In this document: positions 4,594 through 42,147 of the stretch, piece after piece
Numbering within the stretch: position 1 is the first letter of the stretch
Layout: every line of letters starts with the position of its first letter
Source: Gyromitra esculenta
Taxonomy: Eukaryota > Ascomycota > Pezizomycetes > Pezizales > Discinaceae
Assembly: GCA_038503075.1 (NCBI GenBank)
Contig: JBCAML010000013.1
Span: 1,488,001-1,552,000, forward strand
Direction of reading: 5' to 3'
Length of the DNA stretch: 64,000 nt
Notes under the pieces: model-generated
What the model was told of the DNA's origin: nothing
The model's input: the letters and a program-made list of their open reading frames with translations, nothing else
Databases searched by the model: none
Position numbers and translations under genes: made by a program

Positions 4594-5033
4594 TCTCACA
4601 GTTCAGTCCCTCGTTAAGCCCTTCAGTATCCCTGAAGGTGAGCAGTGCTACTTAAGCGAGGTACTAACACGTTCGAGGAGTGCAATGTTTCTACAAGTTC
4701 TACGAGGGGTCTATCTCAAGGCGAGATAAGTGCAGCGAGGTGGACAGCGACAGCGAGGGTTCTGAGGTAGAACCGAGATAGTATTTTGACAATTACAAGA
4801 GAAGGTAAACGAGAACGTTGCTTAAGGAAAGAAGAGAACAAGAACAAGAACGACCAAAATCCTTCCTTAAATACCCCGCTTTTTGGTAACACCGATAACC
4901 ACCCGACAACAACCGAAACACAAAGACATTATTCCAACAACCCATAACCGAACAACAAAGAAATACAACCTTCCAAAACAACGATACAATCCTTAGTCAA
5001 ACCACGATTCAACCTCTAAGTCAATCCGTGAAA
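4594..5033 (-). repeat. Gy2 3' LTR
   Basis: 440 bp. On the minus strand it follows the polypurine tract GGGGGGAGCTAC. The pol stop codon (5021-5023) lies 11 nt inside this LTR. Confidence 0.93.
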
Positions 5034-8000
5034 GTAGCTCCCCCCTTCAAGCGTGAGCTCCTGTGAACACTAGGAGTAACCAAGGTCGAGATAGCTAAAA
5101 ACTCTTTTAGTGCTGAAGTATCTACGAGATCTTCAGCGGGTTCCCAGGTAGGGTGAGCGTAGCCGGTCCATTCGACAAGGTATTGTTGTTGTCCACGATG
5201 TGTTCGTTGCTCAAGAACTTTCTCAATGAAATATTCCTCCTGCTGGTTAACGATGATCGGAGGTGGAGGGGGTAGAACTTGCCCTGGAAGAGGATCATCG
5301 GCAGCGGGCTTGAGGAGTGACACGTGAAAAACAGGGTGGTATTTGACTGAAGAAGGAAGATCAATCTCGTATGCAAAAGGTGAGACTATCTTTTTTACTG
5401 GGTACGGTCCCATCCATTTCCAGTCGAGTTTCCGTGCATTACGAACTGTCCTGATGTTCTTCATTGATACGAATACCTGATCTTCGACTTGATAGGCAGG
5501 AGCAGGAGTTCGATGTTTATTAGTAGAGATCTCCTGGATATCTTGAGCTGTCCGAATTTGTATCTTGAGGTAGTCGTATAGATTTTGCATTGTGGTTGCA
5601 AAATTAGAAGAATCTAGGCTTTGGGCGGTGGCGGTTGAGGGGACAATAGAGGTATCGAAAAGGGGATGGTAACCATAGTTTGCAAAAAAAAGCGAAACTT
5701 TAGTAGTAGCCGATTCCTGGTTATTAGCGGAGAATTCTGCCATGGCTAACCATTTGCTCCAGTCTCCTTGTTGATAGGACACGTATGAGCGCAGGTATTG
5801 TTTCATAACGGCGTTTAGTCGTTCCGTTTGTCCATCGGTTTCTGGGTGGGATGCAGTAGACATTCGCGCCTGGATTCCTAAGCGTTTGCAGAGCTCCTTC
5901 CAGAAGTGGGCTGTAAACTGTGTGCCTCGGTCGGAAGTAACGTACGCAGGTAGTCCATGGAGTTTCCATACATGTCGAAGGTATAAGTCGGCGACGTCTC
6001 GAGAATTGACCGTGGTATTACAAGGGATTAGGTGACGCATTTTTGATAGGCGGTCTATGATGACTAAGATAGCGTCATAACCCTCGGACTCTGGGAGGCC
6101 TGTAACAAAATCCATCGAGATCTCTTGCCAAGGGCGATTCGGAATAGGCAACGGGCGGAGAACTCCTTGGGTGCGTTGGGTAGCTGGTTTTGCTTTTTGG
6201 CATATATGGCAGTTACGCACATAGCGGCCGATAGATTCCCTCATCTTTGGCCAGTAAAAACTTCTACTTATTAGTTCGAAGGTTTTATCTCGTCCAGGGT
6301 GTCCTGCAGCGGGGGCGTCATGATGTCTCCTAATAAGCTCTAAGCGAAGAGGGTCAAAGTCGGGCACATAGAGTTTCTCTCGATAGTATAGTCGGTTATT
6401 TTCCTCCGTGCATTCACTTAGAGTGATCTCCTTTGATTGTCGGTCCTTGTTCTTTAACGCTAAAAGTATCTTTTCTGGGAACTTATCAGCGATATACCCT
6501 TCTAGGAAGAGTTTTTTCAGGGGGGCGTCCAGTTCAGCGGCTTCATTTGATAAAGAAGCCGACAACAAACTTATCTTAGGATCAATGTTCTCCTTCTTTA
6601 GCACCACCTGGCTCTGGTGTGCTAACTGTTCATCCCCTTCCTTGGGGAGATCTCCTGATCTCCTTGTTAACGCATCCGGCTTTCCTCCTTGGCTTCCCGG
6701 TCTGTAGGTGATCACAAAATCAAAACGTGATAGGTATTCAGCCCATCTGGCTTGGCGGCGGTTGAGTTGTTTGGTGCTCATAAAATACTCCAAGTTTTTG
6801 TGATCACTGATGACATCGATTGGGTGTTTTGAGCCTTCCAGTTCCGGACGCCATTCTTCAAAAACTCGGATGATGGCGAGTAGTTCCTTATCGTAGATTT
6901 CGTAATTACACTCCGCGGGGGAGTGTTTTTTTGAAAAGAAGGCTACGGGATGTAGGATTCCTGCGTCATCGTACTGAGATAAGACTCCGCCTGATACGAA
7001 GTCTGAAGCATCGGTCTCCACAATGATTTTTTTATCAGGATCAAAGTGGATGAGGATAGGGGCAGTGGTGAACGCGTGTTTTAGATTTTCGAAGGCGATA
7101 TCGGCTTCGACGGTCCATTCAAAGTTGATGCCTTTTCTTGTAAGGGCAGTAAGAGGTGAAGCGAGTTTCGAGAATCCCAGGATAAATCGGCGGTAAAAGT
7201 TAGCAAATCCTAGGAATGCTTGTACATCTTTAACGCTCTTTGGAGTTCCCCATTCTCAGACGGCTTTTAATTTTTCTTCATCCATCTTGATGCCATCAGG
7301 AGTGAGGATTAGGCCTAGGTATTTTGTCGTTTGTACCTCAAACTCACATTTCTCGGGTTTAAGGAGAATGTTGTTATTCTTTAGCGTCTGTAGAACCTTT
7401 CGAACGTGAGTTTGATGTTCTTCGAAGGTATCACTATAGATGAGAATGTCGTCTAGGTATGCGGTGCAAAAGATATCTAGGTACTCAGTGAGGCAGTCGT
7501 TCACGAAGCGTTGGAAGGTGCCGGGAGCATTGGTCAGTCCAAAGGGCATCACCTGATACTCGTAGAGACCATAGCGGGTTCGGAAAGTGGTTTTCCATTC
7601 TTCTCCATCGGCGATTCGAATCTGATGATAACCGTCGCGGAGATCGAGTTTGGTGTACCATTGAGCTTTCGCTAATCGGTCCAGAGTTTCTCGTATAAGG
7701 GGGGAAGTGTATCGATCCTTGACCGTAATGGCGTTCAGGCCTCTATAGTCAACACATAATCGGAGGGAGCCGTCTGCTTTTTTCACGAACAATACGGGGG
7801 AGCCGGCAGGAGAGGAGCTAGCGCGAATGAAGCCTTTCTCTAGGTTATCTTCGATGTATTTTTTAAGAACGATTAGTTCCTCTCTTGACATCCCATAAAG
7901 TGGTCCAAATGGTGCATCTTTCCCTTCCATTAGTTGTATCTTATGGTCGTAGGGGAGGCGTGGGGGTAGTCCTTGTGCTTTTGCTTTGTCGAACATGTCT

Positions 8001-22541: not shown

Positions 22542-22994
22542 TTTCATGGATGGTTGTTTTATTGATCGGATAGGCACATGGGTACATGGTTGTCGCATTT
22601 TGCTATCTTTCTTTGTGTTTCCTTGGGTTTTCGTCGCAATGAGTTATGTCTTTGTCATCGGAAGAGTTGGGACTTTGGTATATAAGCAAAGGGATTTCCC
22701 TTCTTGTTGTACTTTTCCTCTCTCTTTCCCTAAGCAACGTCTTCTATTGTCGCTCTACTTGTATCCTACAATACAAGCCAGGATTCCAATAATAATCCTT
22801 CGTCGCCTCCGTGATACCTCCCTTTCTATCATGCCACTACATCAACGTAGTTTCGCCGTTGGAGTCATCATAACTCCCCGTTGTCGTAAAGCCTATGGAA
22901 TCGTTACTTAAACTCTTGTTGTTAGTTCTCTTTTGAGTAGCACTGCTCACCTTTAGGGATACCAAAGGGCTTGACGAGATCTCGCTCCTTGAGA
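22542..22994 (+). repeat. Gy6 5' LTR (B type)
   Basis: 453 bp. TATATAA at 22679-22685, CT-rich tract, AAGCAACGT at 22732-22740 (53 nt downstream), then leader hairpins and CTCCTTGAGA end. Confidence 0.93.
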
Positions 22995-29716: not shown

Positions 29717-30452
29717 GAGGGTTCCCAAGTGGGTAGTGCATAGCCAGTCCATTTGACCAAGTATTGAAGTTTTCCGTGACACGAATGTCAGTCTAGGATA
29801 CTTTCGACAAGGTATTCCTCATGGTTGTTCACTTGAATTGGTGGTGGTTGTGTGATGACCTGGCCTGGGAGGAGGTCGACGGGGGTGGCTTTGATCAGCG
29901 AAACATGGAATACAGGGTGATACTTCATCGATATTGGGAGACTAATCTCATTGGCGTGGGCAGAAATAACATGCTTTATCAGGAACGGGCCACTCCATTT
30001 CCAATCTCACTTCCTTGAGTTTCGCGTCGTCCTCATGTTTTTCATCGAAATGAACACTTCGTCCTTTACTTTAAACAATGGGGCGGGGGTACGGTGCCGG
30101 TTGGTGCTTGACTTGAAGATATCCTGGGCTGTCATCATCTGTACCCGGAAGAAGTCTCTCAGTTCTTCCATCTTAGAGGCAAAGTCATTAGCATCAAGGG
30201 TTTGGGGAGAATGGTCATTAAAGACAATGGAGGTGTCGAAATGGGGATGATAGCCATAGTTAGCAAAGAAGGGTGTGGCTTTGGTACTGGCCAACTCTTG
30301 ATTGTTAGAAGCGAATTCGGCAATTGGTTTCATGGATTGATTTAAGGTAATGAATCGTGGTTTAGTTGCTGGTTGTATCGTTGTTTGAATGATTGTACAA
30401 TCCCTTTGTTGTTCGGTTATTTTCGGTTATAAGTTTTGTTAAGGAAGCGGGG

Positions 30453-30512
30453 TATTTAAGCGATGGATTTCGGTCGTTCTTGTTCATTTCTTCTTCTTTC
30501 CTTAAGCAACGT
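30453..30512 (+). promoter_or_regulatory. Gy4 LTR promoter: TATA box, CT tract, self-primer
   Basis: TATTTAA, then about 35 nt dominated by C/T, then AAGCAACGT 51 nt after the box. The same order and spacing (51-53 nt) occurs in A and B LTRs whose U3 sequences otherwise differ. This fits a fungal TATA/CT-rich core promoter with initiation at the primer sequence. The exact start is inferred. Confidence 0.65.
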
Positions 30513-30552
30513 TCTCGTTTACCTTCTGCTGAAATCATTGGAATACTATCTC

Positions 30553-30720
30553 GGTTTTACCTCAGAACCCTCGCTGTCGCTGTCTACCTCTCCACACTTA
30601 TCTCGCCTTGAGATAGACCCCTCGTAGAATCTGTAGAAAACGTCGCGTACCTTGAACGTGTTGTTTACCTCGCTTAAGTAGCACTGCTTACTTTCAGGGA
30701 TACTGAAAGGCTTAACGAGG
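30553..30720 (+). ncRNA. Structured R-U5 leader RNA (three covarying hairpins)
   Basis: Hairpin 2: 30553-30569 with loop ACCTC. Hairpin 3: 30599-30615, TATCTC-GCCTT-GAGATA. Hairpin 4: outer stem CCTCGCTTAAG (30668-30678) / CTTAACGAGG (30711-30720), asymmetric conserved bulge TAGCACTGCTTA, inner stem CTTTCAG / CTGAAAG with loop GGATA (30698-30702). Across the window's LTRs the loops and bulge are nearly invariant while stem pairs change on both sides. It lies between the self-primer and the PBS of the genomic RNA. Probably a cis-acting RNA of retrotransposition; no separate gene is implied. Confidence 0.75.
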
Positions 30721-30735
30721 GACTCAACCGTGAGA

Positions 30736-30748
30736 TTACGTTGCTTCC
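30736..30748 (+). promoter_or_regulatory. Gy4 primer binding site (self-priming)
   Basis: TTACGTTGCTTCC. 30738-30746 is the exact complement of 30504-30512. Confidence 0.82.
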
Positions 30749-30786
30749 ATCATCTACACTTTCTACTGCAGAAAACAACCCTTTGC

Positions 30787-30942
30787 ATGGAAATCATCTC
30801 CCGACTTCGCCAATCCATCCTAAGCATCTTCCCTTGCTTAACGCTGCGAAAACCACAAACCTTGGTTGAAGTCATTCTGGAGTGGCTAGACCAGGAGTAC
30901 TTACGCCAGAACTCCTATCCTTGCCCAACACCCGCATCATGA
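30787..30942 (+). CDS. Gy4 upstream ORF overlapping gag start (ATGA)
   Basis: 51 codons from the first ATG after the PBS, basic and hydrophobic, ending TPAS. Its TGA (30940-30942) overlaps the gag ATG (30939-30941). It aligns without gaps to the Gy3 uORF, with about 12 substitutions. No known domain. It may couple translation to gag. If ribosomes do not reinitiate it would block Gag, so some mechanism must operate. Confidence 0.5.
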   Translation: MEIISRLRQSILSIFPCLTLRKPQTLVEVILEWLDQEYLRQNSYPCPTPAS

Positions 30943-32261
30943 GCTCACCCGCTCCCGCTGGCGCCTCCACCGAAGGAACTGCTGTCGCCGCCCCATGCTT
31001 CCCCACCAGAGAAGCCTTCGCCCAAGCACTGAGAGAAGACACCGCTGAGTTGTATAATCACCTCAGAGACCTCTACCAAGCCTTGGAGGACCAAATCGAC
31101 GCCCTCCAAGAGAACGAAAGAGAAACCGAGGTAAAACTCGGCACAGCACAAATCCAGACTGACAATGCCCTCCGCCATGCTACAGAGCAAGACAAACGGG
31201 TCAACGAGACCGCTAGTCTAATCGCCCGATTACGACAAGAGCGGAATGAAGCTCGAACCGCTATCCAAGCCCCCCCGGCTCCACCTAACCTAACCGCCAC
31301 CCCACCGCCGCCATCCAACTCCCATCGTTCAGAACGTATGCCAGACCCAGAGAAGTTCGATGGATCCCGAGCAAAACTCCCCGGATTTATACTCCAACTA
31401 CGATCTAAGCTCACTGTCAACCGAGACCGCTTTGCCAATGAGACCACCATGATCCTTTACACCATTAATCGGTTGGAAGGAGCAGCTTTAGAACAGGTCC
31501 GCCATATGGTTCTCCCCTCCGGCCTCACCACTTGGACTAGTGCGGAACAACTCATCGCAGCCTTGGAAACTGCTTTTGGAGACCCAGATCCAACCGGTAC
31601 AGCACGACGAGAACTCCATCAGCTCCGCCAAGGGAAACGCGATTTCTCGGCCTACCTCGCTGACTTCCAAAGAATCATGGGACAGCTCAATTTCGACGAA
31701 AATTCGAAGATGGATGCCCTAGAACACGGGATGTCGGAAGAGCTGAAGGAAGCCATGGTTTTTGCACCAATCGCCCCCGGTAATCTCCCTGAGATGATCC
31801 TTACCCTCACCCGATTGGATAACCGCATTCGAGCTCGCAAGGCAGAGAAGCGAGGAAACGCCCGAGACAATATCGGCCAATTTAGTGCTCCCGCCGCATT
31901 CACTCCCGCCTCCTCCTTCACGCCAGGAGGACTAGCCCCCATGGACCTGTCTTTCGGTCGCACAAGCAACCTTTCCCGCCCCGCTCAAGACCAACGGTAT
32001 ACAATGATCAACGGACGAAGAAAGCTCTCTGAAGAAGAAAAACAGTGGCGCCGTTCCACCGGAAAATGTATGTTCTGTGCTGCTCCCGACCACTCATATG
32101 CCAACTGTCCCTCTGCCCCAAAAAAACCAACAATGAGAGGAGCTCTCACCGCACCACCTGCCACCCGTACACCCCCCGCCTCCTCCCTGCCACCACCACC
32201 ACTTCCTCCTCAATTTTTCACATTAGAATCAACAGACTCAGCCAACGAGTCTTTAAACTAA
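30939..32261 (+). CDS. gag: Gy4 Gag
   Basis: 440 residues from MSSPAPAGASTEG, uninterrupted. The ATG at 30939 is chosen because the homologous start in Gy3 is conserved and the frame upstream lacks another ATG. Coiled-coil-like N-terminus, Pro-rich linker, capsid block KLPGFILQLRSKL, LHQLRQGKRDFSAYL, zinc knuckle CMFCAAPDHSYANC, Pro-rich tail PPASSLPPPPLPPQF. Ends TTTAAAC-TAA. Confidence 0.92.
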   Translation: MSSPAPAGASTEGTAVAAPCFPTREAFAQALREDTAELYNHLRDLYQALEDQIDALQENERETEVKLGTAQIQTDNALRHATEQDKRVNETASLIARLRQERNEARTAIQAPPAPPNLTATPPPPSNSHRSERMPDPEKFDGSRAKLPGFILQLRSKLTVNRDRFANETTMILYTINRLEGAALEQVRHMVLPSGLTTWTSAEQLIAALETAFGDPDPTGTARRELHQLRQGKRDFSAYLADFQRIMGQLNFDENSKMDALEHGMSEELKEAMVFAPIAPGNLPEMILTLTRLDNRIRARKAEKRGNARDNIGQFSAPAAFTPASSFTPGGLAPMDLSFGRTSNLSRPAQDQRYTMINGRRKLSEEEKQWRRSTGKCMFCAAPDHSYANCPSAPKKPTMRGALTAPPATRTPPASSLPPPPLPPQFFTLESTDSANESLN

Positions 32262-32296
32262 TACAACCAAGGTCGATCAGTGACTCCACCTTGGTT
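32252..32296 (+). promoter_or_regulatory. Gy4 -1 ribosomal frameshift signal
   Basis: TTTAAAC 32252-32258 read T TTA AAC, stop TAA 32259-32261, 6-nt spacer, stem AACCAAGGT (32265-32273) / ACCTTGGTT (32288-32296). Confidence 0.88.
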
Positions 32297-35200
32297 CAAA
32301 ATTTCTTACCTTTATCTGCATTTTCGATTTCTGGGTTTTCGGTTTCTGGTATAAGCGTAGAGGATCAATTGGATGGGGAACATTTTGTAATATCGTGCAA
32401 TATTTCCCATAGCAATAAAATCATAAAAACACACGCCTTACTAGACACTGGAGCCTCCGGATTTGCATTTATTGACCAGAAATTCGCGAGTCACCACTCC
32501 CTACCTCTTACCCCCTTAAAAACTCCCCGGCAACTTGAAGTCATCTATGGTCGTCCTGTCAGCTCAGGAGACATCACACACATCACCAATCTCAACCTCT
32601 CGGTACAAAACCATTGTGAACAAGCCCCCTGTTTCGTAACACAACTTGGCCATTACCCCCTCGTCTTAGGCATACCATGGATGAATCACCATGATGTTCG
32701 CCTCCATTTTGCCGATAAACGCATTGAGTTTAATTCCAAACTCTGCACCACCCACTGCGCTCCTCGTTCACCAGTTGTGTCCACCTCCTCGATCCCAGCT
32801 CCCCCTAGGCTAAACCTTTCGTTTATTGGCGCTGCCAGTTTTAGAACTCTCACCAGAAAACGAAACTCACAAGCCTATGCCATGTCACTATATGAAATAA
32901 ACAAAATCATAGATGACAAAACGACCAAAGAAGAGTGGAAATCACGTATCCCTGCAGAATACCACGAATTTCTAGACATGTTCGACAAGAAAAAAGCCCA
33001 AGGGCTACCCCCCCGCCGCTCCTATGATCATAAGATACAACTGATGGACGGACGAGATGCCCCCTTCGGACCACTGTACGGAATGTCCCGAGAAGAGCTG
33101 ATTGTCTTGAAGAAGTATATCGAGGACAACCTTGAGAAGGGATTCATTCGTGCTAGTTCCTCTCCCGCCGGATCCCCCGTCCTATTTGTCAAAAAAGCTG
33201 ACGGTTCCCTACGACTTTGCGTGGACTACCGAGGCCTTAATGCTATTACCGTCAAGGATCGTTATACCTCTCCCCTCATCCGCGAAACCCTGGACCGGCT
33301 TGCAAAGGCACAATGGTACACCAAACTAGATCTTCGCGATGGATACCACCAAGTGCGCATTGCAGAGGGAGATGAATGGAAAACCGCCTTCCGCACCCGG
33401 TATGGTCTTTACGAATACCAGGTTATGCCATTCGGTTTAACCAATGCCCCCGGAACATTCCAACGATTCATAAATGACTGCCTCACGGAATACCTGGATA
33501 TCTTCTGCACCGCCTATCTGGATGATATCCTCATCTATAGTGACACCTTCGAGGAGCATCAGATTCACGTCCGCAAGGTCCTGCAAACTCTCAAAAACAA
33601 CGACATCCTTCTAAAACCCGAAAAATGCGAGTTTGAGGTACAGACTACTAAGTACCTTGGTCTCATCCTCACCCCTGATGGCATTAAAATGGATGAAGAG
33701 AAACTCAAGGCTGTTCGAGAATGGTGAACACCCAAGAGCGTAAAAGATATTCAGGCGTTTTTGGGTTTTGCCAATTTCTATCGTCGGTTCATACTGGGAT
33801 TCTCTAAACTAGCTGCCCCTCTTACCGCCCTCACTAAGAAAGGTATTGCTTTTGAATGGTCTGTCGAAGCCGACATAGCTTTTGAAAACCTCAAACACGC
33901 CTTCACTACTGCCCCGATCCTTATCCATTTCGATCCGGATAAGAAAATTATCGTGGAAACGGATGCTTCAGATTTCGTATCCGGAGGAGTCCTATCGCAG
34001 TACGATGATAATGGCATTCTACACCCGGTGGCCTTCTTCTCGAAGAAACATTCCCCCGCGGAATGCAATTACGAGATTTACGACAAGGAACTGCTAGCTA
34101 TCATCAGGGTCTTCGAAGAATGGCGCCCGGAACTCGAAGGTTCGAAACACCCTATCGACGTGATCAGTGACCATAAGAACCTTGAGTATTTTATGAGCAC
34201 CAAGCAACTCAACCGTCGTCAAGCCAGATGGGCTGAGTACCTATCCCGCTTCGATTTCGTAATCACATACCGACCAGGCAAAGAAGGAGGGAAACCGGAC
34301 GCTTTAACTCGGAGATCGGGAGATCTCCCCAAGGAAGGGGATGAAAGATTAGCACACCAAAGCCAGGTGGTGCTAAAGAAGGAAAATATAGATCCTAAGC
34401 TAAGTTTGTTGTCGGCTTCTTTGTCAAATGAAGCCGCTGAATTGGAAGCCCCCTTATTAAAACTCTTTAAAGAAGGATATACCACTGATAAATTCCCTGA
34501 AAAAATCCTCCTAGCGTTACGAAATAAGGACCAACAATCCAAGGAGATCACCTTAAGCGAGTGCAAAGAAGGAAACGGAAAACTCTATTACCGAGATTGC
34601 ATCTATGTTCCAGACTTTGCTCCCCTCCGCCTTGAATTGATCAAAAGACACCATGATATTCCTGCTGCTGGCCACCCAGGACGGGATAAGACTTTCGAAC
34701 TCCTTGCTAGAAGGTTCTATTGGCCCAAGATGAGGAAGTCAATCAGTAGATATGTCCGGAACTGCCATATCTGCCAGAAAGCAAAACCAGTCACCCAACA
34801 CACTCAAGGAGTTCTCCGCCCCTAACCTATTCCTAACCGACCATGGCAAGAAATCTCTATGGATTTCGTTACCGGCCTACCCGAATCAAATGGCTATGAC
34901 GCTATTATGGTAGTAGTCGACCGTCTGTCTAAAATGCGTCACCTTATCCCTTGTAATACTACCGTCAATTCCAGAGACGTAGCTGATCTATACCTACAAT
35001 ATGTCTGGAAATTACATGGACTACCTACGCATATTACATCGGATCGAGGTACCCAATTCACGGCATACTTTTGGAAAGAGTTATGTCAACGCCTTGGGAT
35101 TCAAGCCAGAATGTCTACTGCCTTCCATCCTGAAACAGACGGACAGACGGAGAGACTAAACGCGGTTATGGAACAGTACCTACGATCCTATGTGTCCTAT

Positions 35201-35953
35201 CAACAGGAGGACTGGAGTAGTTGGTTACCTATGGCCGAGTTTTCAGCAAATAACCAGGAATCTGCTAGCACTAAAGTTTCCCCTTTCTTCGCTAACTATG
35301 GGTACCATCCTCGCTTTGATACTACTTTCCTCCCAACCCAAGCAACCTCTCAGAGCCTAGATGCTGCCTCGTTCAGTCAAACCATGCAAGAGCTCTATAA
35401 TCATCTACGGACGCAGATGAGAACAGCCCAGGACGTCCAGGAAACGGCCACGAATAGACACCGTACACCTGCCCCAGCTTACCAAGTCGATGACCAAGTC
35501 TTCGTTTCAATGAAGAACATTAGAACTACCCGTAATGCTAGGAAATTGGATTGGAAATGGATGGGACCTTACCCGATCAAGAAGATAGTTTCCCCTTTTG
35601 CCTATGAAGTTGATCTTCCGTCCTCGGTTAAGTACCACCCTGTCTTCCATGTTTCTCTATTGAAACCATCAGCCTATGACGCTCTCCCAGGACAAATTAT
35701 TCCGCCACCAGCACCTGTTATTGTCAATGACCAAGAAGAGTATTATATCGAGAAAATCTTGGATCAACGTATATATCGCAAAAAACAACAATACCTTGTC
35801 GAATGGACCGGATATGCCCATCCTACCTGGGAACCCGCTGAAGACCTTGCAGATACTTCGGCACTGGAAAAGTTTCTAGCTATCCCGACGTCGGTTATTC
35901 CTAGTGTTCGCAGGAGCTCACGCTTGAGGGGGGGAGCTACTTTCATGGATTGA
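32257..35953 (+). pseudogene. pol: Gy4 pol polyprotein with two nonsense codons
   Basis: -1 frame from the slip site. Protease LLDTGASGFAFID; RT block with YLDDILIYS at about 33520; TGA at 33725-33727; RNase H ([28 protein letters not shown]); integrase zinc finger ([23 protein letters not shown]); TAA at about 34824; DDE core ([29 protein letters not shown]); chromodomain YLVEWTGYAHPTWEP; ends GATFMD-stop (35951-35953) inside the 3' LTR. Apart from the two stops the frame is complete, about 1230 codons. All enzymatic motifs look intact. Confidence 0.93.
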
Positions 35954-36348
35954 TTTAAGGTAATGAATCGTGGTTTAGTTGCTGGTTGTATCGTTGTTTG
36001 AATGATTGTACAATCCCTTTGTTGTTCGGTTATTTTCGGTTATAAGTTTTGTTAAGGAAGCGGGGTATTTAAGCGATGGATTTCGGTCGTTCTTGTTCAT
36101 TTCTTCTTCTTTCCTTAAGCAACGTTCTCGTTTACCTTCTGCTGAAATCATTGGAATACTATCTCGGTTTTACCTCAGAACCCTCGCTGTCGCTGTCTAC
36201 CTCTCCACACTTATCTCGCCTTGAGATAGACCCCTCGTAGAATCTGTAGAAAACGTCGCGTACCTTGAACGTGTTGTTTACCTCGCTTAAGTAGCACTGC
36301 TTACTTTCAGGGATACTGAAAGGCTTAACAAGGGACTCAACCGTGAGA
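35941..36348 (+). repeat. Gy4 3' LTR
   Basis: 408 bp, preceded by the polypurine tract GAGGGGGGGAGCTAC. Confidence 0.95.
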
Positions 36349-37045: not shown

Positions 37046-40000
37046 GGTGTGATGATTTGACCGGGAATAGGATCGTTGGGTGCTCCCCTTAGGAGTGAGA
37101 TGTGGAACACAGGATGATACCTCATCGAAACTGGTAGTTCAACCTCATAGGCGTGAGTGGAGATTATTCGTTTAATCGGGAAGGGGCCACTCCATTTCCA
37201 GTCCAGCTTCCTAGAGTTCCTGGTTGTCCTCATGTTCTTCATTGATACGAAGACTTCATCATTGACTTTAAAGGAGGGTGCGGGGACACGGTGTCGATTA
37301 GTACTATCCTTGAAGATGTCCTGGGCCGTTCTCATCTGCGTTCGAAGAAAGTCCCTAAGGTTTTCCATCTTTTTTGCGAAGTCGTTGGCATCAAGGGCCT
37401 GCGGTGAATTGTCGTTGGGGATGATAGAGGTATCAAAACGAGGGTGATAGCCATAATTTGCGAAGAAAGGGGTGGCTCTTGTACTAGCCGATTCTTAGTT
37501 ATTTGCAGCGAACTCAGCAATAGGCAGCCACTTTGACCAATCGTCTTGTTGATAGGAGACATAGCAGCGAAGATATTGCTCCATTACAGCATTGAGACGT
37601 TCGGTTTGACCATCGGTTTCTGGGTGAAAGGAAGTGGACATGCGGGCGGTGATATTTAGACGTTGACATAGGTGTTTCCAGAATTTTGCAGTGAACTGTG
37701 TACCCCTGTCCGATGTAATGTGCGTGGGTAAACCGTGAAGTTTCCAGACATTTTGAAGATAGAGTTCGGCGGTTTGCTCAGCATTAATCGTGGTATTGCA
37801 AGGGATTAGATGTCGCAGCTTTGATAGTCTGTCCACTATGACCATTATCGCATCGAAGCCGTTTGACTTGGGGAGTCCGGTAACGAAGTCCATTGATAGC
37901 TCTTCCCAGGGGCGATTAGGGATCGGAAGGGGCTTTAGAACGCCGTGGGTGCCAAGGGTGCTGGGTTTTGCTCGTCGGCAAATATGGCAGTTTCTTGTAT
38001 ACCGTCCGATATACTCTCTCATTTTAGGCCAATAAAAGTGCCTAGAGATAAGTTCAAAGGATTTTTCACGTCCTGGGTGGCCAGCAGAGGGGGCATCGTG
38101 GTATCGCTGCAAAATGAGGAGACGGAGTGGGTCATGGTCGGGAATATAGAGCTTATGGCGGTAAAGGAGTCGGTTATTAATTTCAGAGCAGTCTCCGAGT
38201 GTAATCTCCTTGGATTGTCGTTCGCCGTTTTTGAGCGCTAATAGGATTTTTTGTGGAAAAGGGTCAGCTATATATCTTTCGTTCATTAAGATTTCCAGGG
38301 GAGCATCCAATTCAGCGGGTTCATTTGACAAAGAACCCGAAAACAAACTCAGCTTAGGGTCAAGATTCTTCTCTTTTAGGACTACCTGGTGTTGGTATTG
38401 TAGTCTTTTATCCCCTTCTTCAGGGAGATCTCCTGATCTCCGAGTCAATGCGTCCGGTTTTCCTCCTTGTGCTCCAGGTCGGTATGTGATTACAAAATCG
38501 AAGCGGGAAAGGTATTCCGCCCATCTGACCTGTCTCCGGTTAAGCTGCTTGGTAGTCATAAAATATTCCAAGTTCTTATGATCGGTGATGACTGAGATGG
38601 GGAGTTCAGCTCCTTCAAGTTCTGGGCGCCATTCCTCAAAGCAACGGATTATGGCTAGGAGCTCTTTATCATAAATTTCGTAATTGCATTCAGCAGGTGA
38701 ATGCTTTTTGGAGAAGAAGGCCACAGGGTGGAGTATGCCGTTATCGTCCAGTTGAGAAAGAACACCGCCAGATACAAAGTCTGATGCATCTGATTCTACA
38801 AAGATTTTTTTACGGGGGTCAAAGTGCATGAGTACGGGGGCCTTGGTAAACGCATCTTTAAGGGTTTCGAAAGCAAGTTCAGCTTCGACGGTCCATTCGA
38901 AAATTATTCCCTTCTTGGTGAAAGCAGTAAGGGGAGCGGAGAGGCGAGAGAATCCCAAGATAAACCGGCGGTAGAAGTTAGCAAATCCGAGAAAGGCTTG
39001 AACATCCTTGACTGATTTTGGGCGATTCCAGTCTCGAACGGCTTTAAGCTTATCTTCGTCCATCTTGATACCTTCGGGTGTGAGGATTAGGCCGAGGTAC
39101 TTGATAGACTGCACGTGGAACTCACACTTCTCAGGTTTGAGAAAGATGTTATTAGCTTTCAGAGCTTCAAGGACTTGTTTGACGTGTATTTTGTGCTCTG
39201 CGAGGGTATCACTATAAATAAGGATATCATCGAGGTAAGCTGTGCAGAATAGGTCCAAGTATTCTCGAAGGGAATCATTGACGAAGCGCTGGAAGGTTCC
39301 GGGGGCATTGGTAAGGCCAAATGGCATTACCATATATTCGTAAAGGCCATATCGGGTTCGAAAGGCCGTCTTCCATTCTTCTCCTTTGGCAATGCGGATT
39401 TGGTGAAAGCCATCGCGGAGATCAAGCTTTGAGTACCACTGGGCTTTTGCGAGACAGTCCTGGGTTTCTTTGATCAGGGGGGATGTATATCGGTCCTTGA
39501 CAGTAAGAGCGTTAAGGCCACGATAATCGACACAAAGGCGAAGAGAACCATCGGGTTTAGCGGCAAAGAGGACTGGGGAGCCGGCGGAAGATGAACTAGC
39601 ACGGATAAAGCCTTTCTCCAGGTTGTCCTCAATATATTTCTTTAAGACTAGGAGCTCGTCCCAAGACATGCCATAGAGGGGTCCGAACGGTGGTTCTTTG
39701 CCTTCTTGCAGGGTGATTTTGTGGTCATAGGGTCGGCGAGGGGGGAGTCCTTGAGCTTTGGTCTTGTCGAACATGCCTAGGTATTCATGGTATTCGGCAG
39801 GTATTCGTTGTTTCCACTCTTCTTTAGTTGTCTTGCTATCAAGAACTCTATTGATTTCGTAGAGGGACATAGAATAAACCTGGATACCCTTTTTCCTAGC
39901 TAGCATGCAAAAACTGGCGGCGCCGATAAAAGCGGCATTAAGTTTGGTTGGAGGGGAAATAGCGGTAGCCGAGACGATGGGTTGCTTGGGAGCACAGTGG

Positions 40001-40497
40001 GTGGTGCAGAATTCAGAGTTGAATTTGATGCTTTTATTAGCGAATTGTAGATGAACGTCATGGAGGTTCATCCAGGGAATACCGAGTACTAGGGGGTAAT
40101 GGCCTAGTTTGGTGACGAAGAAGGGAGCTTTTTCTGCGTGTTGTTGAATAGAGAGTTCTAGGTAGCAGAGGTTGGTAATGTCTCCCGAGGCGATTGTTCG
40201 GCCATTAATGACCTCTAACTGGCGGGGGGTTTTGAGGGGAGATAAGGGCAAGGAATGGTGACGCACGAAATTTTCATCAATGAAAGCGAACCCTGAGGCT
40301 CCAGTGTCAAGAAGTGCGTGTGTTTTTATGATTTTATTTTGGTGGGAAATACTACAAGAAACTACAAAATGTTCCCCATCCAAATTATCCTCCACACACA
40401 CGTCTGACACTGAAAACCCCGAGATAGAAAATGCTGACAAAGGAGAAAAATGAACCAGAGCAGGGTCACAAGGCGACTCTGGTTGAACTAGTTTAAA
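37046..40497 (-). pseudogene. pol: Gy5 pol (protease to integrase C-terminus)
   Basis: An open frame of about 980 codons (40440-37495) carries protease (LLDTGASGFAFID), RT (YLDDILIYS), RNase H ([28 protein letters not shown]), integrase zinc finger (HPGREK, NCHICRRAK) and DDE ([29 protein letters not shown]). A TAA at about 37495 falls where relatives read NNQES. The frame then continues to PGQIITPP at 37046, where it meets Gy6 sequence at the right inversion breakpoint. Its chromodomain is at 27539-27780. B-family counterpart of Gy4. Confidence 0.9.
40453..40497 (-). promoter_or_regulatory. Gy5 -1 ribosomal frameshift signal
   Basis: Minus strand TTTAAAC (40497-40491), TAG (40490-40488), stem AACCAGAG (40484-40477) / CTCTGGTT (40460-40453). 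Two base pairs differ from Gy2/Gy4 on both strands. Confidence 0.87.
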
Positions 40498-42147
40498 GAC
40501 TCAACCGAGTCTGCTGCATCAAAAGCGCGAAAGCGGGGGGGCAACGGCAGAGGAAACACAGAAGAGGCAGGAGGAGCGGCGGTGTTAGTGGCAGCTCCTC
40601 TCATAGCGGGGCGTTTTGAGGCGGAGGGGCAGTTGGAGAAAATATGTCCTTCCCCTGCACAGAACAGGCAGCGATTGTTGGTTTGTCTCCATGTTTTTTC
40701 CTCAGGAGACAGCTTTCTTCTTCCGTTGACCTGGACATACCGTTATTCGGGGGCGGGGCGAGAGGTAGAAGTCCATCCAAATGAAAGGTCTATACGGGCA
40801 AGTCCTCCAGGGGCAAAGGAGGAGGAAGCGGGGGTGAAGGCGGTAGGAACGGCGGCAGAGGCGGTGAACTGTCCCATGGTGTTGCGGGCAGCATTTTTCT
40901 TTTCCTCTCTTCTTGCTCGGATGCGATTGTCCAAGCGGAGAAGGAAGGCGCAGAGGGAAGTGAAGGTGGTGGGGAAGTCGGCGACTGTTACTACTGCCTC
41001 CTTTAATTCGTCCGACATACGGAACTCTAGGGCGTCGTTTTTTGCGGATTCATCATAATTAAGGCGCCCCATGATGCTTTGGAAGTCGGCAAGGTTTTCA
41101 TGGATGAATATTATGTTAATTGATTAGGTACATGGATACATGGTTGTCGCACCCCGTTATTGTTCTTTGTGTTTTCATGGGTTTTTCGTTACAATGAGTC
41201 ATGTCTTTGTCATCGAAAGAGTTCGAACGTGGTATATAAGCGAAGAGATTTCCCCTCATCTTGTACTTTTCCTTCTTCTTTCTTTAAGCAACGTCTTCTA
41301 TTGTTCACTCTTGTATTCTACAATACAAAACTCGGTTACACCTCGTAATCCTCCGCTGTCGCTGTCTTTAAAGTCACCTCGACTTAAATCAATCGTAGAG
41401 CCTGTAGAACCTTCGTACACTTTCTCGTTGTTGGTTTCCTATTCAAGTAGCACAGCTCATCTCGAGGGATACTCGAGAGCTTGATAAGAAACCCGCTCCT
41501 TGAGAAAGGTAGGCGGAGAAATCTCGCTTCCCTTGTCTGAGTTGGTGTAGTTCACGGTGGACAGTACCGAGGGGGTCGGGGTCGCCGAAGGCTGTTTCTA
41601 AGGCGGTGATTAGATCGGCGGCGGAGTTCCAAGTGGTAGTTCCGTCGGGAAGGACGGAGTGACGGATTTGTTCGAGGGCGGCTCCTTCAAGACGGCTGAT
41701 AGCATACAATATCTTATTATTGTTGCTGGAAAAACGATCGGCGTTAACCGAGAGCTTTGACCTGAGTTGTAAAACGAACCCTGGGAGTTTATCGCGAGAC
41801 CCATTGAACTTATCTGGGTCAGGCATTTTGTCTGATCGGCCTCCTTGTGTGTGAGCGGGAGGTGCTGGTGACGGAGGTGCAGGTGGTGGGGGAACAGTGC
41901 TGTGGAGTCGAGCGACTTCTGCTTCGGCTGCTTGTAGTTGGGATTGGCAAGTATTGAATCTTGCCATCATATTGTTCCTTTCTTGAGTGACTTCCTCAAG
42001 CTGTAGGTCTGCATAGGTGAGGTTATCAACCCGCTGTTGGTAGTGCGAGCGGATTTCCTCATAGGCGGAGGCGAGGTCGGCGTTGGCGGCGGCCTGGAAG
42101 TTCTCAAAAGTAGGGAACGTCCAGGAAGTGGGTGTGAAGTTGCTCAT
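40488..42147 (-). pseudogene. gag: Gy5 gag (split by a B-LTR, one stop)
   Basis: ATG at 42147 (MSNFTPTSWTF). Segments 42147-41506 and 41095-40488. Coiled-coil-like N-terminus, Pro-rich linker, KLPGFVLQLRSKL, LHQLRQGKRDFSAYL, zinc knuckle CLFCAGEGHIFSNC. A TAA at about 40743 (CAA to TAA) precedes the zinc knuckle. Ends TTTAAAC-TAG. Confidence 0.88.
41096..41505 (+). mobile_element. Solo B-LTR in Gy5 gag
   Basis: 410 bp, duplication AAGGT (41091-41095 / 41506-41510). Confidence 0.93.

Follow-up and report, generated by a model that had tools for sequence, protein, structure and literature searches.

Self-priming of reverse transcription has been worked out mainly in the retrotransposon Tf1, where RNase H cuts after the annealed primer. 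In this system the 5' end of the RNA anneals to the primer-binding site (PBS) and synthesis of complementary DNA (cDNA) starts there (PMC10085805, PMC4600332), and a "pretzel" of three duplexes has been published for Tf1, Tf2, Tosmo1-3, Tcry1 and Tj1 (PMC10085805); these and the other papers cited here are drawn on in part. Here, a stretch of 64,000 nucleotides (nt) from the fungus Gyromitra esculenta (contig JBCAML010000013.1, positions 1,488,001 to 1,552,000; the window) provides many copies of a structured leader formed by the R and U5 regions of long terminal repeats (LTRs), of which the copy beginning at window position 30504 serves as reference. This leader is very likely the RNA on which a self-priming chromodomain LTR retrotransposon of the Tf1/sushi kind initiates reverse transcription; in it, a pseudoknot carries nested hairpins that may act as protein recognition sites.

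Comparison with the described systems illustrates both what is shared and what is peculiar to this leader. Like the Tf1/sushi elements, it has two further duplexes between PBS-adjacent sequence and the leader, and the element encodes a chromodomain integrase (PMC10085805, PMC4600332). It differs from them in its nested hairpins, H2 and H3, and in a three-way domain with a GGAUA loop, which go unmentioned for the published pretzels in the parts of those papers drawn on (PMC10085805, PMC4600332). Furthermore, the Gyromitra LTR ends in GA (TGAGA) and is followed by a UU spacer, whereas fission-yeast LTRs, in the sources as far as drawn on, always end in CA. To our knowledge, a CA end does not define the Tf1/sushi group. 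In retroviruses, the stem of the U5 inverted repeat adjoins the PBS. The primer of Ty1 is a tRNA, whereas the PBS here matches the element's own R start. The 5' pseudoknot of Ty1 is similar in that it, too, connects distant parts of the leader and encloses hairpins in its loops, and differs in that the apices of the Ty1 hairpins are complementary and proposed to kiss (PMC5454406); by eye, no complementary loops are found here. In mouse mammary tumour virus (MMTV), where Gag binds a purine loop and the PBS, U5 structure beside the PBS and looped purines again offer a likeness (PMC8096270), but the primer is a tRNA, the fold is another, and Gag binding to the Gyromitra leader is putative. The GalEa Copia Conserved Hairpin Site, also in a fungal LTR element, is a conserved RNA hairpin that replaces the classical PBS; it belongs to Copia, however, its hairpin lies directly after the LTR, and its authors, in the part of their account drawn on, found no complementary U5 inverted repeat (PMC5445492).

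The features proposed to bring the primer to its binding site form a two-part helix, P1a and P1b.

30504 to 30512, + strand: R start and self-primer AAGCAACGT, the 5' side of P1a; an exact complement of the PBS, near-invariant.
30513 to 30517, + strand: UCUCG after the primer (P1b), pairing with the UGAGA of the LTR end in 344 of 400 cells in a fixed register.
30731 to 30735, + strand: UGAGA at the LTR end, the P1b partner of UCUCG by sequence pairing.
30736 to 30737, + strand: UU between the LTR end and the PBS, a 2-nt bulge that would face the presumed point of primer cleavage.
30738 to 30746, + strand: PBS ACGUUGCUU, the 3' side of P1a, directly behind the 5' LTR.

Support for this helix comes from junctions between LTR end and PBS, 403 of which occur as exact matches in the genome (none for the reversed-pattern control). 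Of these, 80 were fetched, all from contigs C1-C3 and from among the first 81 in the list, which makes the sample non-random; with 7 from the window they make 87 copies, and omission of 7 that have no recognisable R start or leader motif leaves 80. In these 80 junction copies, AAGCAACGT pairs with ACGTTGCTT in 715 of 720 cells, and UCUY pairs with GAGA at all four positions in 79 copies if either of two registers is accepted, compared with 6% by chance on the same terms. The position of the R start at AAGCAACGT is a presumed one.

Another helix, P3, links the leader to sequence beyond the LTR.

30624 to 30637, + strand: leader arm of P3, GUAGAA-UC-UGUAGA in copy 30504; near-invariant motif GUAGARCYUGUAGA.
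30753 to 30766, + strand: post-PBS arm of P3, UCUACA-CU-UUCUAC, starting 6 nt after the PBS.

The span of the primer:PBS helix takes in the leader arm but not its partner; the two helices therefore cross and give a pseudoknot, and P3, P1a and P1b together would, as far as sequence can tell, amount to a three-duplex pretzel of the Tf1 kind. Among 79 elements (copy L080, whose post-PBS sequence is unrelated, is omitted from these counts and kept in the covariation test), the PBS and the P3 arm are separated by 5 or 6 nt in all 79, pairing is Watson-Crick at 12 of 12 positions in 65, and the all-pyrimidine 2x2 internal loop is present in 76. Mean pairing within elements is 11.71, falling to 10.59 when arms are exchanged between elements; none of 2000 arm swaps does as well overall, within family A or within family B, in a test that ignores ancestry. 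The arms change in step, with the matched types GTAGAA/TTCTAC, GTAGGA/TCCTAC, GTAGAG/CTCTAC, TGTGGA/TCCACA and TGCAGA/TCTGCA, so that family differences are matched across the helix as AA/TT, GA/TC and AG/CT in one half and as GTA/TAC, GTG/CAC and GCA/TGC in the other. Copies w42202- and L094 each carry one pair-keeping double change that occurs in no other fetched copy. Within 5.8 kb of copy 30504, the best duplex partner of the leader motif is the post-PBS site itself (-13.3 kcal/mol; the next elsewhere is at -10.6). An earlier note on this DNA, made from the sequence without database searches, had proposed a Tf1/sushi-type leader that positions the self-primer; this role is supported by way of P3, which the note had not seen, its range of 30504..30735 stopping at the LTR end and missing both the PBS and the arm at 30753-30766. 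As a separate observation, the unrelated sequence of L080 (308-380) resembles a tRNA gene remnant, with box A- and box B-like motifs by eye, and ARAGORN calls no tRNA there.

The two loops of the pretzel hold the remaining structure: loop 1 (85-140 nt) contains H2 and H3, and loop 2 (87-96 nt) contains the three-way domain.

30553 to 30569, + strand: hairpin H2, stem GGUUUU/AGAACC, loop ACCUC; 470 of 480 cells paired in the 80 junction copies.
30572 to 30583, + strand: CGCUGUCGCUGU hexamer repeat (CGCUGU repeat) between H2 and H3, near-invariant, with 11 of 12 bases the same in A and B; outside every retained helix.
30599 to 30615, + strand: hairpin H3, stem UAUCUC/GAGAUA, loop GCCUU; 451 of 480 cells paired.
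30668 to 30720, + strand: 3' three-way domain H5, with outer stem 30668-72:30716-20 and 30674-78:30711-15 and a bulged pyrimidine at 30673.
30680-82:30686-88, + strand: H5 mini-hairpin, conserved AGC-NNN-GCU, within the "bulge" TAGCACTGCTCA.
30691-97:30703-09, + strand: H5 terminal hairpin, loop GGAUA at 30698-30702.

All 13 loop-bearing hairpins quoted in the earlier note occur letter for letter in the window, and its two outer stems are visible in the alignments. Its description of the loops as fixed holds for GGATA, which is constant in both families (99%, 5 of 5 bases common), and for the most part for the H2 loop (92% and 84%), but not for the H3 loop GCCTT, which is fixed in A only, with 3 of 5 bases common to A and B. 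The outer stem that it drew across a near-invariant bulge is present, although its basal part pairs poorly in many copies and TAGCACTGCTCA is not simply a bulge: as it holds the mini-hairpin AGC-NNN-GCU, H5 is a three-way junction. In RNAalifold folds of the alignments, H2, H3 and the 3' domain come out both for A and for the joint set; B gives them too, though its H3 is shorter. At three stem positions left free by the search pattern, 30 of 34 window copies are fully paired and 4 are not. No partner search was made for the CGCUGUCGCUGU repeat. Two further helices were dropped, H1 (30531-35:30542-46), which is incomplete in A, and H4 (30639-43:30658-62), which is largely absent in B. Kissing of the H2 and H3 loops with GGAUA is likewise unsupported by eye, since ACCUC or GCCUU could form at most about 3 base pairs, one of them G-U, with the GGAUA loop and its closing G. 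Rfam has no match at gathering score in the window, nor any up to E 1 on 30490-30800.

It is possible, though doubtful, that the pretzel alone does the work. H2, H3 and H5 would then serve chiefly as structural spacers, binding no protein themselves, that compact the leader and carry the primer to the PBS. The hairpins do occupy precisely the two pretzel loops; in addition, A and B have different forms of H3 and of its loop, and loop 1 can be anywhere from 85 to 140 nt long, all of which would suit spacers. Spacers, however, need no such constancy as is found in the GGAUA loop, AGC-NNN-GCU and the CGCUGU repeat, which are near-invariant amid changing stems, including the variable terminal stem of H5. 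Recognition of the hairpins by proteins is preferred as a tentative explanation.

Covariation beyond phylogeny was assessed with a script that imitates R-scape, in which a G-test with average product correction is compared with alignments simulated on a FastTree tree by replaying inferred Fitch substitutions. The 57 pairs of the structure were laid on copy 30504, structures with partners slid by 1 to 3 columns served as controls, and the threshold was E<0.05. To the junction copies were added, after removal of duplicates, 61 of 71 window copies and extra copies (35 further A copies were fetched; L016 and L041 failed trimming), giving a set of 141. The helices had first been named from folds of window copies, and their exact registers were fixed after an all-pairs test that included outside copies; copies outside the window are independent of the first sighting of the helices, but not fully of the pair registers.

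Seven of the 57 pairs are significant in the 141 copies and 6 (two in P3, four in hairpins) in the 73 junction copies from outside the window, with none for the slid structures in either set. Covariation thus stands above the phylogenetic null, which sustains the earlier note's claim of a conserved leader RNA with compensatory stem changes. Within A alone (99 copies), 5 pairs are significant (slides 0, 0, 1, 0, 0 and 0), and within B and C together (42 copies), 2 (one slide gives 1). When all ~36,000 column pairs are ranked in the 80 junction copies, pairs of the structure take 7 of the top 11 places. The H2 pair 30554:30568 reaches E 0.0013 in the 141 copies, 0.004 in the 73 outside copies and 0.001 in A, and is not significant in B and C; the H3 pairs 30601:30613 and 30602:30612 also covary. 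In the 73 outside copies, all of which span past the PBS, two P3 pairs are significant (E 0.002 and 0.021). For the 3' domain, 45 diverse copies were chosen, L079, L080, L094 and L096 were left out, and the model was built from 36 of 41 rows (without L087, L054, L104, L071 and L091). In these 36 copies, 92.8% of cells are paired, compared with 26-59% for slid versions, and both sides have changed in 13 of 20 pairs.

Several results weigh against this reading. P1 is invariant and hence offers no covariation, and the start of the transcript at the primer is inferred, the 5' end of the mRNA being placed from sequence alone. The arm-swap test of P3 takes no account of ancestry, and the only C-family junction seen (22732-22994, with a leader about 30 nt longer than that of A) pairs at 9 of 12 P3 positions by a hand count. 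Further pair types in the 3' domain are no more frequent than in shuffles (224/500), and the asymmetry of G-U over A-C is weak (86 and 54 cells; 25 distinct types each). Folded as a whole, the leader has an unremarkable energy, with z -0.5 for copy 30504 and a mean of -1.47 over 24 copies. Only 2 of the ~36,000 column pairs reach E<0.05 (30601:30613 and 30696:30704), and among the 141 copies no pair of P3 is significant (the lowest E values are 0.067 and 0.21). These last two results, along with the dominance of the A/B split in the all-pairs ranking, are what would be cited for the view that the apparent covariation is only the shared ancestry of subfamilies. Such a view is very improbable, given the phylogeny-simulated null, the slid controls, the tests within A and within B and C, and the double changes of P3 confined to the single fetched copies w42202- and L094.

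A different kind of evidence comes from the start codons that the leader lacks. In the 141 copies, 35 AUG triplets are seen where dinucleotide shuffles give 259, and 114 copies have none; the copies are related, so these counts are not independent. AUG is the most depleted trinucleotide among those expected at least 50 times, followed by GCG, while CAT stays close to expectation (241 and 300) and AUG is not depleted in the U3 of 7 window copies. This AUG-poor leader suggests transcription and scanning by ribosomes; given such avoidance, ribosomes most likely scan it, and translation and the closed knot would have to alternate. The earlier note had offered translation as one possible role, and a version in which the hairpins serve translation, by an internal ribosome entry site (IRES) or a shunt, rather than replication might appeal to the long structured leader that precedes gag. 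It is improbable, however, as AUG depletion favours scanning over an IRES, and in 5 of 7 window junction copies a long frame resembling gag starts at the first AUG past the PBS, both of which fit plain scanning. Two side observations concern this region: an upstream open reading frame of 51 codons at 30787-30942 has a TGA that overlaps the gag AUG (ATGA at 30939), and an ATGGAA start is common to several genome copies.

The same strand-specific avoidance of AUG, absent from those U3 sequences, bears on whether the stems are RNA at all. They occur in both LTRs near the promoter, the excess of G-U over A-C is weak, and the 3' domain (30664-30724) folds unusually well both on the RNA strand (z -4.85) and on the other strand (z -3.17), so that palindromes acting in DNA as promoter, transcription-factor or integrase sites might be considered. 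This is the least probable of the alternatives, because P3 covaries and has one arm in U5 and the other beyond the LTR, so that both are present together only in the full-length transcript.

For the self-priming pretzel, a course of initiation can be proposed from PBS complementarity, P3 and the stems of H2, H3 and H5, which are seen in the sequences, with transcription start, cleavage and bound proteins supplied by inference. The RNA 5' end AAGCAACGU would fold back onto the PBS, which follows the 5' LTR closely, and a short UCUY:GAGA duplex would prolong the primer helix beyond the 2-nt bulge. The 12-bp P3 would link the leader motif to the post-PBS sequence, cross the primer helix and close the pretzel, with H2 and H3 in one loop and the GGAUA three-way domain in the other. 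By analogy with Tf1, a cut by the element's RNase H behind the primer would then release a 3' end from which minus-strand DNA is started. The UU between LTR and PBS would be copied and later trimmed by integrase at insertion, which fits LTR copies that end in TGAGA. The hairpins may be recognition sites through which Gag or reverse transcriptase (RT) finds and packages the folded, primer-ready RNA, a guess prompted by the near-invariance of GGAUA and the mini-hairpin, by the CCHC motifs, and by the purine-loop and PBS sites for Gag in MMTV (PMC8096270). A combined priming-and-packaging leader, in which P3, formed only in full-length RNA, presents the GGAUA domain to CCHC Gag, only primer-seated RNAs are packaged and cut, and closure of the knot stops AUG-free scanning, is a speculative and rather unlikely extension of this scheme.

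The reference leader belongs to a chromodomain Ty3-type LTR retrotransposon by its domains, whose 3' end is at 36348.

30328 to 30735, + strand: 5' LTR, TTTCATGG...CCGTGAGA; a 5-bp target duplication, ATTGG, flanks the element.
30939 to 32261, + strand: gag, its start taken as the AUG at 30939; Pfam DUF4939 and Retrotrans_gag.
32045 to 35953, + strand: pol pieces (protease-like, RT, RNase H, integrase) in three separate open frames.
35941 to 36348, + strand: 3' LTR, differing from the 5' LTR by one base (30717 G/A).

The chromodomain (PF00385) lies on the integrase pieces 34859-35953 and 5021-7021, both of which also match SH3_Tf2-1 (PF24626). The A copy encodes a CCHC motif at 32067, in frame with gag; the B-type element has one at 40670, in the interval between its gag frame and its pol frame. 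Families A and B probably each have their own gag and pol. The pol at 37495-40440 is given to B only by its position, which is downstream of the B-type junction w42202-, and it shares 75-77% identity with the A copy in the RT and RNase H pieces. Among the best 120 of 7974 protein relatives, those with organism names are from Morchella sextelata (10, at 55-71% identity), Podosphaera aphanis (2) and Aspergillus fumigatus (1), and the clade placement rests on pairwise and Pfam comparisons. Against viral contigs, the 3'-domain pattern gave 0 matches and pol found no relative.

The window (G000:C13:1488001-1552000) lies in a genome of 47.1 Mb in 23 contigs. Within the window, nhmmer finds 43 copies of the R-U5 leader, and the 38 that entered the window alignment were sorted into 20 of family A, 12 of B and 6 of C. 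With a covariance model of the 3' domain, 41 copies score E <=1.3e-13 and 2 more are weak hits (E 0.13 and 0.68). Five-bp target duplications flank 15 of the 38 LTR copies, and 7 of the 38 run into a PBS and cannot show one. Both strands of the window are crowded with LTRs of the three families and with fragments of elements, and its 64 kb contain 41 confident leader-domain copies. The LTRs start with TTTCA and end with TGAGA, not TG...CA, as seen in 30328-30735 and further window copies. Genome-wide there are 2166 R starts (3 for the reversed control) and 2144 exact matches to the 3'-domain pattern (control 0), or 2625 with up to 2 mismatches. No sign of this domain with a different primer is found, the two counts being nearly equal and an R start lying 160-205 nt upstream in 32 of the 34 window copies that match the pattern.

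The self-primer and the pretzel are already known, and the earlier note's view of an undescribed leader stands only in part, the three-duplex form having been published (PMC10085805). The nested hairpins H2 and H3 and the three-way GGAUA domain do look new: no description of them was found in the literature searched, which was drawn on in part and did not span the original Tf1 papers (Lin and Levin 1997b, 1998; Butler 2001), and no other comparative covariation test of the third pretzel duplex was found in that literature. With 2166 R starts, 2144 domain copies and 403 junctions in one genome, natural variation can be used to test the pretzel. The P3 arms, varying in step, provide a comparative test of its third duplex, and the compact, conserved leader domain is a likely handle for packaging or primer cleavage.
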